Source: Alitta virens | Lineage: Eukaryota > Annelida > Polychaeta > Phyllodocida > Nereididae | Reading direction: 5' to 3' | NCBI GenBank assembly: GCA_932294295.1 | Contig: OW028575.1 | Coordinates: forward strand, 44,550,753-44,614,752 | DNA: 64,000 nucleotides | In this document: positions 31,732-63,976 of the stretch, piece after piece | Layout: each line of letters begins with the position of its first letter | Position numbering within the stretch: position 1 is the stretch's first letter | Translations under genes and position numbers: made by a program | Notes under the pieces: model-generated | Told to the model about the DNA's origin: nothing | Seen by the model: the letters and a program-made list of their open reading frames with translations, nothing else | The model's database searches: none

Positions 31732-32226
31732 AAGCCCCTGTCACACGGGCCGGTTGTGCCGTAGTGAAGCCGTAGTATTACGTAATAATTGCGGAAATCG
31801 CTACCCGGCTCGAAGCCGGCGGCCCCAATATGGCCACCCGTGGATACCCGTGGATACCCGTCAAGCACCCGTGGGACCCTTGGCCAAGCCGCGAAACCCG
31901 GCCCCGGGAGCCGGTTGTGCCATGCTTGCATGGCACAACCGTAGAAATCTCACGGGTGTAAAAAAAAAAAAAAAAACCCGTGGAAGCCGGCGGGTGACCC
32001 GTGGAAGCCGGCGGGTGACCCGTGGAAGCCGGCGGGTGACCCGTGGAAGCCGGCGGGTGGCCCGTAGAACCCGGCGAATTATTCGTCTCTAATTTCACCC
32101 CGGCGGCTTGTTGAGGGGTTCTACGGGTAACCCGCCGGCTTTCACGGGTAACCCGCCGGCTTTCACGGGTAACCCGCCGGCTTTCACGTGTAACCCGCCG
32201 GCTTTCACGTGTAACCCGCCGGCTTT
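31732..32226. mobile_element. GC-rich fold-back cluster with 21-bp units in opposite orientation
   Basis: Begins AAGCCCCTGTCACACGGGCC. A perfect 30-bp palindrome (stem CGGTTGTGCCATGC) lies at 31912-31941 and an A17 run at 31959-31976. The left arm (31977-32074) has four units of CCCGTGGAAGCCGGCGGGTGA; the right arm (32119-32226) has five units of the inverted sequence (TTTCACGGGTAACCCGCCGGC). The arms can pair over about 90 bp. Much richer in GC than the rest of the window. Confidence 0.8.
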
Positions 32227-56800: not shown

Positions 56801-59800
56801 ACACAGGAGCCAATAAGCATTCTGAGACGACTTCAAGGGTCAGCTTGATCGTGTCTGGTGATGACGGTGACACCGGTGTTAGGCGTCTTTGGGATGGAAA
56901 ACGAAAGGTATGAACAATAAAACTGATGATAAACTTTTTAAATCATCCTCTTTTGTATGATAAATGTTAAGAACATGCCATAATCATCATGGTATTATGC
57001 TACAGGAACTTGAAAGAGCTAGCATCAACAACTACATCCTGTCCACTGAAGGATGCCTCGGCCCACTTACTTTCCTGAGAATCTGGCATGACAATACAGG
57101 AAGTGGAAAGAAGAGGTCCTGGTTCATGGATCAGGTCCAGGTGAAGGATCTCCAGACTGGTGAACTGTGAGTGTTTTACTGACGAAGTTCTGACCCATAG
57201 CATGCACTTACATAGTCATTGCACATTGGCTACGACATGTTTTCTTACTTCGTCGATGTTAATTTGACGATAATTTGGTCATGGTATAGCTTCTGCTTCT
57301 TGTGTGACCGATGGCTTGCTGTTGAAGAGGATGATGGTTTAGTTGAGAGGATCATCCCTGTGGCTGGTATGAGGGAAATGACAGCCTTCAAGCACCTGTT
57401 CTCCTCTTCTGTGAGAAAGAAGTTGGCGAATGACCATCTCTGGGTGTCAGTAGTGAAACGTCCAACTCGCAGCAACTTCACAAGAGTACAAAGAGTGTCC
57501 GCTTGTGCTGCCTTGCTCTTCCTCACAATGATCAGCAACTGCATGTTCTTCAAGGTGAACTAGCTCTTCATTTTCTATTTTTCATGTATTTTTTCATATA
57601 AGTGGAGGAATATCTTCAATTTGATCTAAGACTGAAACTAAGCTCAAGGTGGATGACTACACTATCTATAATTCTTTTCATACAGTTTGCCCCTGTAGGT
57701 AATGTAGTGACAACATGCATGTGTGATAATGGTAGGTACTTGACTGTATTAAAGGTGAAGTTCTGATAATTTTGAATTTGCTTTTCCAGTCTGATGAAAA
57801 TAAAGAGAACGTGCGTGCCATCACCATAGGCCCGATTCAATTTACGCTGCACCAACTGTTCATCTCAATCATGACCACCTGCATTGTGTTCCCGCCGTCT
57901 ATGATCATCATCACAATCTTCCGTCGGGTGAAACCAAAGAGCAACGGTGTCATGCAGGCCAACCAGAAGTTCTCACAGAAGACCAGCAAGTTCAAGTGGA
58001 GGAGGTACAACCCTGGATCATCTCTGTGGGATAACCAGCCAAGCAGGGGACAAAGGATGAAGGAATCTCTGAGGAGCATCTTGAGTCACCACCAAAAGAA
58101 CAAGTACCAGGATGATGACAATCTGGATGAACTGGGTCTGCCAAAGAAGAAGAAGCCTTGGATGTTGCCTCATTGGTGCATCTACATTGCCTGGATAAGT
58201 GAGCCTTTTCTTTTGCTATTTTTTTCTATGGGTTCTGTATTTGGTATTTGTGTCAGTACCACTGCTTTGTAGCTCAGTTTATTTACACGAGAAGCTGCCA
58301 GATGCAAGCATAATGATGAGATGACTAAGCATACTGATTACCTACCATCCAGAGCCTTGCTAGGTTCACTATCTCTCTTTTAAAATAAACTTCACTTAGT
58401 ATTTGAGTTTTCATGTCATCAAAAATCAAATAAGTAAAAAATAGTAATTTTGACAGACTGCGGACGCTTAAGTTCACTAAGCGTAGACACCAATATAGGG
58501 CACTGCAAATGTAATATCTTGCACTAAGAACTTCCATCTGAGACTTAATCCAGGAAGAGTTCTTTGGCCAGATGCAGACCACCGGCTGTTATGTAGACAT
58601 CACATCAATGCTGAGATATTATTTTACAGTGTGCCTCACTGCAATCTTTGCCTCCGCATTCTTCACCGTGCTCTACAGTATGCAATGGGGACGAAAGAAG
58701 TCACTGAACTGGCTCTCCACCTTCGTTCTCTCCTTCTTCCAATCCGTCATCGTTGTGCAGCCAGTTAAGGTAATGTCCAAATAAAAATTTGTCAGATACA
58801 ATCAAATGAGTTTTATGCATGGATATGAAGGAATCAAGACTTAACGATAAGCAAAGAGAAAACGTATGTCCTTTCTTTGTGACAGGTCCTCCTGTTGGCT
58901 GCCTTCCTTTCATGTGTCATGAGGAAACCTGACCTTGACAATGAGGATGAAGTCTTCGATGAATGTCACAACGCTCTGCCAGGACCTGATGAATCAATGG
59001 ACAAAGCCTCAGCAAGGAATATTGATGGTAGGTTTTCAATAATTGGTCATTGATTGTGTAGTAAACAAAATGCTAATAAACAGTAAAAATGTTTGTATGT
59101 GGAATTGGCGATATCACTAATAAGTTGGTTAAATCAAATACATCAACATGATCAATGAAGCTAATGAAGCAGCCAGTTCAACATGCACGAAACTAGTCCA
59201 AAGTTGTAAGTTGTTGATTAACATTGAACTGATGTTTATCATGTACATGAAGTCCATCTGTTTGTGTGAAACGAGTTAGAGGCTACCAAATTTTAGTCAT
59301 GAGTCACGCCCCAACCACAACATAATATCTCCCATTAAGACGGCTTCAAAAGCCATTATTACCAAAAACCATATAAGTATGGATGGAGGGTGGTCTTAGT
59401 GGTGATACTATATCTTGAGTATAATTCTTGACAAAACATCTTCAAATTGCTGAATGTCACTGATCTTCCATTACAGACATCCTGATCCAGCGCAAGTCAG
59501 CGGTGACCCACATGCAGCCTCCGGACATGGCCAGCCTTGAGGAAGCAAGGCAGCTGAGGATGAAGGAGATAGCAATGGAGGCCATTTTGAAGGAGTGTAT
59601 TGTCTACTTCTTCTTCATCCTTGTTGTTTTCTTCCTCTCTTACCAAGCGAGGGACAGCGACTCTTACTTGTTCGCCGCAAACATCAAGAACCAATTTGTT
59701 CACGGCAGTGTTCCGCTCAATTCGGTAAGCTTAAACTTCAATATTATAGTTCTAGTACAACATCTGAATCCTTCTAATATCAGTGATTATGCAAGTCAGA

Positions 59801-62800
59801 TATAATGAGTTTATCATAAGGAAACCTCTTTTTGATCAAACCAGGTAAAATTATGAATTTAGCATGCTTTTTGGTGATGACACAGTATAGTGGTGTCATC
59901 ATACATTTATGCTCGTAATCTCAGATTGGTCTATATTCAAAGCGAATGTTTTATATCCAGAGCATGTTAGATCTAGCTATCATGGTAGTTTATGTTAAGT
60001 TTGAATATGAATGCGTCAAACTCAATTCATGCGTCTGAAAGCTTCATGCATCCTGAAACTTTAAGCAACAAGATGCTATGGACTGCCATGTAAACATCCA
60101 CATTTTTCAAGAAAATGACTGCCATGTAAATATTGTTAACATCCAAATTTTTCAAGCAAAATGCTATGGAAAATCATTAAACATTCATTAATGTTTTATG
60201 TTCCATTATATTTATAGTGTAGTGTGACCAGCATTACTTAGCATGGAGCCTTACATTATCCTAAAGCACCTAGAATACATCAGTCTCCTCACTCATTCTT
60301 CTATCATAACTTACTCAATCCTTGTTATGTTAAAGTAAAGCTGTGTAAAACTATGTGATTTCCTCATAGATCAGCAAACCAGACACAGTATGGACATATT
60401 TGAGGAAGACTGTTCTGCCCAACATGTATTCTAGTAATTGGTACAATGGAAAAGAGTTGACAGACTGGAGGGAGCTATTGCAGATTGATGACAGATGTAC
60501 GATCAGGGTGGGGGTGGCAAGGCTGAGACTCCAAAGGATCAAAGAGGGTAAGTCGAATGATCATCATATCCAATGCATTCAATTAAAATGTAGCAAACAA
60601 ATCAGCAATGAAAGCTTCTGTTAGAAGGATCATATTAGCTTAGTGGTACAGCAACAGCATAGTCTGATTTAAAGCCTGCAATCATTGAGATTAGGAATAT
60701 GATGACAGTGCAACCTTGACCTTTTGATGTAGATTTGTTATGCTTAGTATTTAATTACAGCTGTCCATTTTTTTTAAGAATAAAGTTATTATTATTGGAA
60801 CTTAATTAGGATACATTGGTCCTTCCAGATTCTTGTGAGGTACAGAAAGTCTTCAAACCTATATTCAATCATTGTCGAGACAACTACAACTGGATGGATG
60901 ATGACACAAACGATTACCTGCCGGGCTGGGTGGTCCCAACGGCTGAGAACAGACATCGCCAAGGAGTCATCGACTGCTACTCTGAGGCCCTAGAGTTTGA
61001 AAATGAAACAAGTCTCAGGGATGAAGAGAGTCCATGGATTTACAGGTAAGGTCAGATGAATGGAAAAAGTTAAATGTACAATACGGAGAAACCACTACCA
61101 TCAAAATACTACACAATCAATCGTCTCTGGAAGCTATTGTTGTGCAAATACAATATCATATTTAATGAGATTTGCATTATTTGATAATTGATACAGAAAT
61201 TCATTCGAACTGAAGAGTGCGCCCTATGCAGGGACTCATTCCATGTACAAAGGAGGTGGCTTCACCTTCACCTTCAAGCGAACTCCTGAAGCTACTAAGC
61301 GCCTTCTGGATGAAATGGAGCAATACGAGTGGGTCAATCCAAATGCCAGAGCTATGTTTATTGAGTTCACCCTATACAATGGTAACGTCAACCTCTTTGG
61401 CAGTGTCATTCTCCTTGTGGAATGGATTGCCGGTGGTGGTGCAACAGTTCGTCACGAAGTTAAGGTAGGTGAAGTCCAAGGTTCTTCGTTTACTTTAACA
61501 ATGAATATACAGCAGGAGGTTTTCAGTCTTATTTGGCCAGTTAATACGTAAAACATAATATATAACTAATTAACTAAACTCTAAACAACATCCAGACTAA
61601 GCGCTGTGATTAAACTTCAAAAGACACACAAGGCACCACAAATTTAATTTGCCTAAACTACCAGCAGGCCACCCAAAAGAAAGGCACTAGAATGGCATCT
61701 GATAGACTATGTTGTATTGTCATGGTGTGACATAAACTAACTTGGGATTGTTTCAATATTTCCAGGTGTTCTGATTGAACTGACTTGGATTGTTTCAATA
61801 TTTCCAGGTGTTCTGATTGAACTGACTTGGATTATTTCAATATTTCCAGGCGTTCTGATTGAACTGACTTGGATTGTTTCAATATTTCCAGGTGTTCTGA
61901 TTGAACTGACTTGGATCGTTTCAATATTTCCAGGTGTTCTGATTGAACTGACTTGGATTGTTTCAATATTTCCAGGTGTTCCGACTGAACAACTATGTAG
62001 GAGGATTTGGCATCATCGTGATTGTATTTGAAGTTCTCTTCTTGGGCTTCACTGTTTACTTCTTGATCAAGGAAATAGGAAAGATAAAGAAGGAGAGACT
62101 GAAGTACTTTAGAGAGTTCTGGAACATGCTGGAGCTGAGTACTCTCATACTGTCCCTGGTTGTCATTGTCATGTATGCTCTCAAGGCTATATTTGGCAAG
62201 GTGGCTCTGCATGTATTGGAAGAGAGCGAATCTGGTAAGCCATAGTTTATTTCTATACATGCATCACTAAATGTACCAAAAACATAGATATGATCAGAAT
62301 TGGTTAATTTCTAGTCATTAATCACTGAATGTACCAAAAACATAGATATGATCAGAATTGGTTAACTTCTGGTCATTCAATGTGGTACTCTTCATTTGCT
62401 TTTCCAAAAAGAAAATACAGCATTGCATGTTTGACCTCTGATTTACAGGAGAATACGTCAACTTTGTCACAATTGGCGTTTGGGATGAGATGTTCACCTT
62501 CCTGCTGGCATTCGTGGTCTACCTCACAACTGTCAAGTTCATCAAGATGCTACGCTTCAACCGCAGGATGGGCATGTTGGGTGACACCATCCGTATCGCT
62601 ACAAAGGATCTGAAGAACTTCATCATCATGTTCTTCATTTATTTCTTAGCTTTCTGTATGATGGCTTATATGCTCTTCGGCACTACCCTGGGCAACTACG
62701 GCAGCTTCATCAGCACTGTGGAGTCTCTGTTCTCCTTCGCTCTGGGCAGCTTTGACTTTCATGCAATGCGCGCTGCTTCCAACATGGGTGTCGTCTTCTT

Positions 62801-63787: not shown

Positions 63788-63976
63788 GGGGCGGGACCTA
63801 GCTCAGAGGTAGCGCTCTGGGCTTCCAATCTGGGTCCCGGGTTTGATCCCTGGTCAAGCCTAATAGTTGGATGACTGTTTCATCCTTCGTCTCATTGCCA
63901 TGGTCTCTGCCTGTCCTAATTAGCCCAACTGGTGCAGAAATACAGGACATAAAGCCCTAATCACACACACACAGAG
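63788..63976 (+). mobile_element. tRNA-derived SINE downstream of the polycystin gene
   Basis: Fourth copy, with the head GGGACCTAGCTCAGAGGTAG, B box GGGTTTGATCCCTGG, body and (CA)n tail. Compared with the 30.8-kb copy it retains extra body sequence (CTCATTGCCATGGTCTCTGC) that was lost there. Confidence 0.85.

Follow-up and report, generated by a model that had tools for sequence, protein, structure and literature searches.

A tandem array of six 3' splice sites across an intron-exon boundary of a polycystin gene of Alitta virens

How does a gene deliver its product when one of its introns ends in six equivalent 3' splice sites, only the last of which keeps the reading frame? This question is raised by a stretch of 64,000 nucleotides of the Alitta virens genome (assembly GCA_932294295.1, contig OW028575.1, positions 44,550,753 to 44,614,752 of the forward strand; hereafter the window, with positions counted from its first letter), in which a minisatellite lies across an intron-exon boundary of a PKD1-type polycystin gene. 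A preliminary description of the window had reported six tandem copies of a 42-bp acceptor unit, and these were recovered by Tandem Repeats Finder (TRF), by alignment of the copies and by location of the six AGs, so that the array is a confirmed observation. Concerning its history and behavior, we consider it probable that a single tandem duplication of about 43 bp was expanded later, and that splicing goes mainly to the last copy, the other copies acting as decoys.

The array, its host gene and the reading frame

The features of the locus are listed below. Exon numbers 27 and 28 are those of the preliminary description and are not counted from a start codon; 13 exons were called here from 55998 on.

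61204..61464, + strand: upstream exon (27), coding part, end of the extracellular polycystin domain, ...VRHEVK, phase 0 (Pfam Polycystin_dom 3.8e-19)
61465..61975, + strand: host intron, 511 nt with the last acceptor (exon model)
61735..61990, + strand: minisatellite with 42-bp unit, 6.1 copies, across the intron-exon boundary (TRF, copy alignment)
61737..61765, + strand: copy 1 acceptor, CTAAC (A at 61740), tract, CAG; poison, TGA at 61772 and 61781
61780..61807, + strand: copy 2 acceptor, CTGAC (A at 61783), CAG; poison, TGA at 61814 and 61823
61822..61849, + strand: copy 3 acceptor, CTGAC (A at 61825), CAG followed by GCG, not GTG; poison, TGA at 61856 and 61865
61864..61891, + strand: copy 4 acceptor, CTGAC (A at 61867), CAG; poison, TGA at 61898 and 61907
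61906..61933, + strand: copy 5 acceptor, CTGAC (A at 61909), CAG; poison, TGA at 61940 and 61949
61948..61975, + strand: copy 6 acceptor, CTGAC (A at 61951), CAG; sole frame-keeping acceptor
61976..62234, + strand: downstream exon (28), 259 nt, start of the PKD_channel region, ending in phase 1 before gtaagc (Pfam PKD_channel 5e-13)

The minisatellite (61735-61990) was described by TRF with a period of 42 bp, 6.1 copies, 95% matches and a score of 461. With several tandem copies of a unit in the range of 10–100 bp, each bearing a complete splice signal of the host, it has the make-up of a splice-site-bearing minisatellite. Every unit is a complete 3' splice site formed by a branch-point-like CTRAC, a pyrimidine-rich tract and CAG, the A of CTRAC, which is CTAAC in copy 1 and CTGAC in the other five, being located 25–26 nt upstream of the exon start. 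When the copies are aligned on the AG, the first exon bases after the six AGs are 61766, 61808, 61850, 61892, 61934 and 61976. Three base changes distinguish the internal units from one another: copy 3 has A for G upstream of the tract and GCG for GTG, and copy 5 has C for T. The outer copies are distinct, copy 1 in its intron half (CTAAC, one extra G) and copy 6 in its exon half (CGACTG). With up to 3 mismatches allowed, the 28-nt intronic part of the internal unit was found five times in the window, in copies 2–6, against a chance expectation of 0.00; a sixfold identical acceptor is far beyond chance. A 351-base query over the array gave one match in the A. virens genome (671,116,069 bases, 23 contigs), namely the window itself, using a search tool that omits very common words and scores the best candidates only. 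Thus the unit was not found elsewhere in the genome by this search, and its 18-base core gave no exact match within 200 kb around the window. The array is also open through all its copies in another forward frame (61741-62031, 96 codons from stop to stop) and on the reverse strand (61737-62012, 91 codons), as a mechanical result of the 42-bp unit.

The host gene was identified as a PKD1-type polycystin by its PKD repeats, polycystin domain and PKD channel, all found in separate exons: Pfam returned PKD (3.7e-30), Laminin_G_3-like (2.3e-6), Polycystin_dom (3.8e-19) and PKD_channel (5e-13 and 3.4e-30), and gave no match for three further exons submitted. From their order and strand, we infer that the PKD, polycystin and channel exons belong to one messenger RNA (mRNA). 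One of the introns, 58252-58553, is a doubtful call. In the exon model, the donor of the upstream exon, AAG/gtaggt, scored 10.1. The use of copy 6 gives an intron of 511 nt and an exon of 259 nt, while that of copy 1 gives 301 nt and 469 nt, respectively; the next intron downstream has 214 nt. The joined last exons matched human polycystin-2 with an E value of 8.6e-56, continuous over the K/V junction at 61976. The best two of 26 database homologues, at 62% and 57% identity, belonged to the annelids Capitella teleta and Owenia fusiformis, respectively, and the exon joint reads VKVFRL or FKVFRL in seven of the eight homologues examined, the eighth (P0010) having no coverage there. Since homologues read through the K/V joint, the acceptor before 61976 is the only one that keeps the frame (EVK/VFRL).

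Ten out of ten paralogues found in the same genome have uninterrupted coding sequence where the host intron lies (28–39% identity, with small gaps nearby in L030 and L032). The intron would be either old and lost from the ten paralogues, or gained in this subfamily; with its position common to none of them, lineage-specific gain or repeated loss is possible. Two of these paralogues, L027 (29.86 Mb) and L028 (44.78 Mb), are on the contig of the window, L028 about 168 kb downstream of it, and their local sequence is PKD2-like (EFPATGGAIP..FRTVKLIRYVT). Seven exon queries found no match to a nearby paralogue, from which the ancestral state could be read, within 200 kb around the window. As the ten distant paralogues are without the intron, the single-copy state of the acceptor considered below is reconstructed, not observed.

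Concerning the reading frame, the first five acceptors had been said to lead to GTG TTC TGA. This is correct for copies 1, 2, 4 and 5, while copy 3 gives GCG TTC TGA; all five lead to a stop at codon 3, and the word ‘poison’ holds as a coding statement. In the frame of exon 27, copies 1–5 read (GTG or GCG) TTC TGA TTG AAC TGA, with ten in-frame TGAs in all between the first and the last AG, and the second TGA of each of these copies sits inside the CTGAC motif of the next one. Two explanations offered earlier for the shared stops have to be abandoned. The TGA/CGA difference is not the only one that separates poison from functional acceptors, because each of copies 1–5 holds two in-frame TGAs, and a change of TGA to CGA alone would leave an upstream copy still unproductive. 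Nor are the copies alike because 42 is a multiple of three: exon 27 ends in phase 0 and each acceptor is read in phase 0, so that the unit length is irrelevant to the stop and would matter only if both stops were lost. The stop is predicted to lie after the extracellular polycystin domain and ahead of the PKD_channel part, which is in line with the truncation just before TM7 that had been proposed. From copies 1–5, the stops are 292–460 nt before the next exon junction (exon end 62234), that is, well upstream of it, as in poison acceptors coupled to nonsense-mediated decay (NMD). By the usual exon-junction rule, a stop that far upstream of a junction triggers NMD. Under this rule, an upstream-spliced mRNA would be NMD-sensitive, and one escaping NMD would code for a protein without the channel part.

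Considerations bearing on acceptor choice

Acceptors were scored with a generic position weight matrix whose frequencies are approximate. The six copies scored 8.0–8.4, versus 1.4–12.0 for the 11 other called acceptors of the gene, and they outscored at least 8 of these. The earlier statement that the six acceptors look equally good was thus upheld, and sequence strength leaves the choice among them undecided. Three considerations of another kind favor copy 6: exon context, published duplicated acceptors and predicted folding.

Beta-globin substrates with duplicated 3' splice sites, in which the upstream copy was followed by 14, 55 or 205 nt of exon, were spliced inefficiently and at the downstream site only, with more double U2AF occupancy; a strong duplicated site displayed double occupancy and poor splicing, which a competitor oligonucleotide raised several-fold (PMC5389562). 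The same authors mention that an earlier report did find an effect of the exon length between duplicated sites (PMC5389562). As to exon context, equal competing acceptors of human exons that lie between a long intron on the upstream side and a short one on the downstream side behaved as in exon definition, the site closest across the exon being favored, and the change from intron to exon definition was placed at 200–250 nt (PMC9225289). The downstream intron of 214 nt is near that change. Two readings had been advanced in the preliminary description, tuning of the channel level by NMD and neutral expansion with preference for the last AG; the papers on duplicated acceptors lend better support to the latter.

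Concerning folding, a hairpin formed between adjacent units was predicted at the first acceptor:

61761..61789, + strand: predicted cross-unit hairpin UCCAGGU-GUUC-loop-GAAC-UG-ACUUGGA, masking acceptor 1, -10.8 kcal/mol alone

In the prediction, the 29 nt of this hairpin recur at acceptors 2, 4 and 5, and at acceptor 3 with one base changed (-10.1). The UCCAGGU of one unit can pair with the ACUUGGA of the next one, and the pairing is extended by GUUC/GAAC; it is impossible after copy 6, which is not followed by ACUUGGA. The cost of opening a 9-nt acceptor window was computed with pairing spans limited to 45, 70 or 100 nt, or without limit. In the real sequence, copy 6 had the lowest cost of the six at all four spans (5.6, 8.3, 6.8 and 6.9 kcal/mol, respectively), while the minima of copies 1–5 were 6.2, 9.4, 9.3 and 8.9, with an overall range of 6.2–11.1 kcal/mol. 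At spans up to 45 nt, copies 1–5 were predicted to be open 8–15%, versus 34% for copy 6 and 25–74% for the 11 other acceptors. In idealized arrays of two, three and six copies, the last one was the cheapest to open in nine out of nine settings.

As a control, the part of the unit outside the tract and CAG/GT was shuffled. The low mean openness of copies 1–5 was matched by 1 of 300 shuffles and the openness contrast by none of 300; with opening costs, the observed values were reached by 0 of 200 shuffles for the mean of copies 1–5, by 4 of 200 for the smallest gap and by 6 of 200 for the mean gap. The folding energy of the whole array was discarded as evidence: it first gave z = -3.08, but shuffles that preserved the repeat arrangement of the array were equal or lower in 53 of 300 cases with six copies and in 41 of 300 with two. 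The masking of the upstream acceptors is a plausible contributor to the choice of copy 6, as far as the folding model goes.

Origin of the array and rival explanations

The first bases of the exon are GTGTTCCGACTGAAC, and the intron upstream of copy 1 contains ...AAAC TAACTTGGGATTG... When, in an alignment by eye, the exon sequence ...CTGAAC is joined to the intron sequence TAACTTGGG, a 43-bp unit results, with AAC common to both break points. Compared with this predicted junction, the present internal unit has T for C at two places in the exon half and G for A at one place in the branch-point motif, and it has one G fewer. The whole 3' splice site would have been copied by a tandem duplication of about 43 bp that began shortly before the branch point and took in 15 nt of the exon. 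The junction of exon ...GAAC with intron TAACTT... gives AAC TAA in frame at once, and the first extra copy would have been poison at birth, with the duplicated CTAAC/CTGAC putting TAA/TGA in the frame of exon 27. The 42-bp unit would have expanded later to six acceptors. The three substitutions and the lost G, being common to all the units that carry those segments, would have preceded the expansion, unless it was copy 1 that gained a G. Since the internal units show no more than three changes acquired after expansion, the two-copy stage was probably much longer than the six-copy stage, unless conversion homogenized the units. If the gene matters to the animal, we infer that, while keeping a poison upstream acceptor, it must have spliced mostly downstream.

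The sequence, the frame, the stops and the relations among copies are established; from these, the explanation that we prefer, and hold to be probable, extends to the working of the array. The last acceptor would yield nearly all the productive mRNA, as it alone adjoins the real exon and has the nearest downstream donor. Each upstream AG could be drawn into a hairpin with the unit after it, whereas copy 6 has no such unit to pair with. The other five acceptors would be decoys able to bind U2AF/U2 and to slow the removal of the intron, and their occasional use would give an mRNA ending at codon 3 of the exon, to be destroyed by NMD. The decoys may lower splicing efficiency and leak some NMD-sensitive mRNA.

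Several points weigh against this explanation. The six acceptors score alike, and copy 1 is the nearest to the donor and has, with CTAAC, the motif that ranks better against the branch-point consensus. For human competing acceptors at least 20 nt apart, the upstream one was preferred when all pairs were considered, and strongly preferred under intron definition (PMC9225289). A human BRCA1 tandem duplication, of 395 nt of intron 9 and 1617 nt of exon 10, is also adverse: the cDNA held the duplicated sequence including the intron portion, with a stop after 10 residues (PMC11839443). It indicates that upstream acceptor use happens; as the cDNA primers were specific for the altered allele, the result does not give the shares of the sites (PMC11839443). 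On the side of folding, the reconstructed single-copy acceptor was 10% open, versus 14% for idealized copies 2–5, and its opening cost was 7.4–7.8; pairing need not block an acceptor, since this one, paired too, presumably worked. At the four spans, respectively, 9, 11, 11 and 10 of the 11 other acceptors were cheaper to open than copy 6. At long spans the six copies had similar open fractions, and the AG dinucleotide was predicted to be paired in every copy. Besides, the folding and accessibility tests were designed after the fold had been seen.

Other explanations give a different weight to the same evidence. If the array were a purely neutral minisatellite, the upstream acceptors would never be recognized, and the efficiency, level and fidelity of splicing would be unaffected. 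The abundance of arrays (7.4% of the window) and the predicted hairpins that mask the upstream sites agree with this, but the copies outscore at least 8 of the 11 other called acceptors, and the duplicated 3' splice sites studied in the literature recruit additional U2AF and U2 and are poorly spliced (PMC5389562); we take strict neutrality to be unlikely. The folding model allows a stronger version of masking, in which the pairing of each CCAG/GU with the ACUUGG of the next unit would hide all but the terminal acceptor at any copy number, and this generalization seems unlikely. Another possibility is that copies 1–5 and copy 6 are switched by tissue or condition, with NMD setting the amount of channel and the repeat number acting as the dose. 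It is consistent with the intact CTRAC, tract and CAG of the five upstream copies, with the equal scores of the six acceptors, with stops 292–460 nt before the next junction, and with the Drosophila introns derived from tandem duplication, which had a premature stop in 18 of 18 sequences and were linked to NMD (PMC2891723). However, with three substitutions between internal units, a recent expansion explains their intactness and there is no power to detect selection, and the array is found at one genomic place only. A regulatory NMD rheostat is possible but unsupported, and its probability appears to be quite low.

Upstream splicing could also be corrected afterwards: an upstream-joined mRNA retains a piece bounded by GT...AG, and a second splicing would restore the normal mRNA, as an early stage of intron gain. 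An AG ends every unit and GT starts four of the five upstream copies, and in the potato RdRp gene a duplication across the boundary became a new intron with a donor from the copied exon piece (PMC4974935). Against it, the donor GTGTTC scored 4.8 in place and 4.0 when joined to exon 27, versus 6.0–12.1 for 11 of the 12 donors of the gene (the twelfth, 1.3, is a doubtful call), copy 3 starts with GC (donor score -1.2), and an intron made of one 42-nt unit would be very short. This succession of splicing steps is thus very improbable. Recursive splicing as the main explanation was rejected because of the weak donor: the regenerated donor of a recursive splice site is GTRAGT-like, and GTGTTC has no A and G at +4 and +5. 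Finally, tandem arrays are often misassembled, and the true copy number could be one or few, the array being inflated; the private changes in copies 3 and 5 and the distinct outer halves of the first and last copies speak against such an error, which we hold to be extremely improbable.

Related systems and meaning of the array

How unusual it is for an array to meet a splice site can be estimated within the window, where TRF arrays occupy 7.4% of the sequence, or 5.3% when only periods of at least 10 are counted. One of the 24 splice sites of the 12 introns is inside an array, compared with about 1.3–1.8 expected by naive coverage. In such a genome, the encounter of a minisatellite with a splice site is expected now and then; a clean sixfold acceptor with shared stops is presumably rarer than a simple overlap. 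The coverage of introns was discarded as an argument: arrays of period at least 10 make up 374 of the 3573 bases of the 12 introns (10%), but the figure is circular, since the 374 bases come wholly from this array (241) and from the 58-bp repeat of the next intron (133). The latter is a second minisatellite (62245-62377, 2.3 copies) that starts about 10 nt past the donor of that intron and has no splice site inside. Elsewhere in the window, two 21-bp minisatellite arrays at 31976-32226 form an inverted repeat, whose 97-nt arms are 89% complementary and separated by 43 nt, and which could adopt a hairpin or a cruciform, and the stretch GGGACCTAGCTCAGAGGTAGCGCTC...GGTTTGATCCCTGG at 63793-63862 resembles by eye the box A and box B of a tRNA-derived short interspersed element, while ARAGORN reported no tRNA in the 64-kb window.

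Among known systems, the human 6-16 gene is said to have a minisatellite that supplies several splice donors. Like the array, it would place several copies of one splice signal in one transcript; the difference is that the array offers complete acceptors with branch point and tract, and that upstream choices end the frame. In the acceptor of CFTR intron 8, the number of TG/T repeats alters productive splicing, but there a microsatellite weakens one acceptor, whereas the array is made of copies of a whole one. Artificial duplicated 3' splice sites, due to Reed and Maniatis in 1986 and described in PMC9225289 and PMC5389562, resemble the array in having identical competing acceptors for one intron, and the 14-nt exon piece of one beta-globin construct (PMC5389562) nearly equals the 15-nt exon piece of the array. 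They were hand-made, with two copies, and assayed in nuclear extract, while the array has six and arose naturally in the gene of an invertebrate.

The gain of an intron through a tandem duplication that crosses an intron-exon boundary is known from the potato RdRp gene, in which, as in the array, the duplication carries branch point, tract, CAG and some exon, and the copied exon piece can be a donor; there, a GTAAG donor made a new intron (PMC4974935), while the weak GTGTTC of the array lets the copies most simply stay in the old intron. The BRCA1 exon 10 partial duplication also sets intron end and exon start in tandem and brings a stop with the intron portion, but it has 2012 bp, leaves 1617 nt of exon after the upstream acceptor, gave an observed aberrant mRNA and was called pathogenic (PMC11839443). 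NAGNAG acceptors are likewise neighboring alternative AGs at one exon; as described in PMC5555464, these AGs are three bases apart and change one residue in frame, while those of the array are 42 nt apart and each has its own branch-point motif. The DDX3Y minisatellite was rejected as a precedent, being described in PMC3039753 as a piece of the promoter, not as a splice array. In summary, a minisatellite with multiple donors and an intron-exon tandem duplication are already known, and no acceptor counterpart, that is, no natural array of complete acceptors, was found in the open-licence PMC papers searched on minisatellites at splice sites, duplicated acceptors and tandem-array introns.

The choice of the first, the best or the last among equal acceptors has been studied previously with hand-made duplications, and here a natural six-copy version is available. 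As any upstream choice ends the protein, acceptor usage can be read from RNA-seq data obtained with NMD blocked. A rule also emerges: when a tandem duplication spans an acceptor, the outcome is poison from the start in one reading frame out of three, because CTRAY includes TAA or TGA. The fact that the terminal copy alone lacks a downstream pairing partner in the predicted folds suggests how such an array may survive. If self-masking were true, a repeat that is poison at birth could grow freely without destroying its gene, changes in temperature or helicases could unmask copies and tune the channel level through NMD, and mistakes would also leave GT...AG pieces that can be spliced again.

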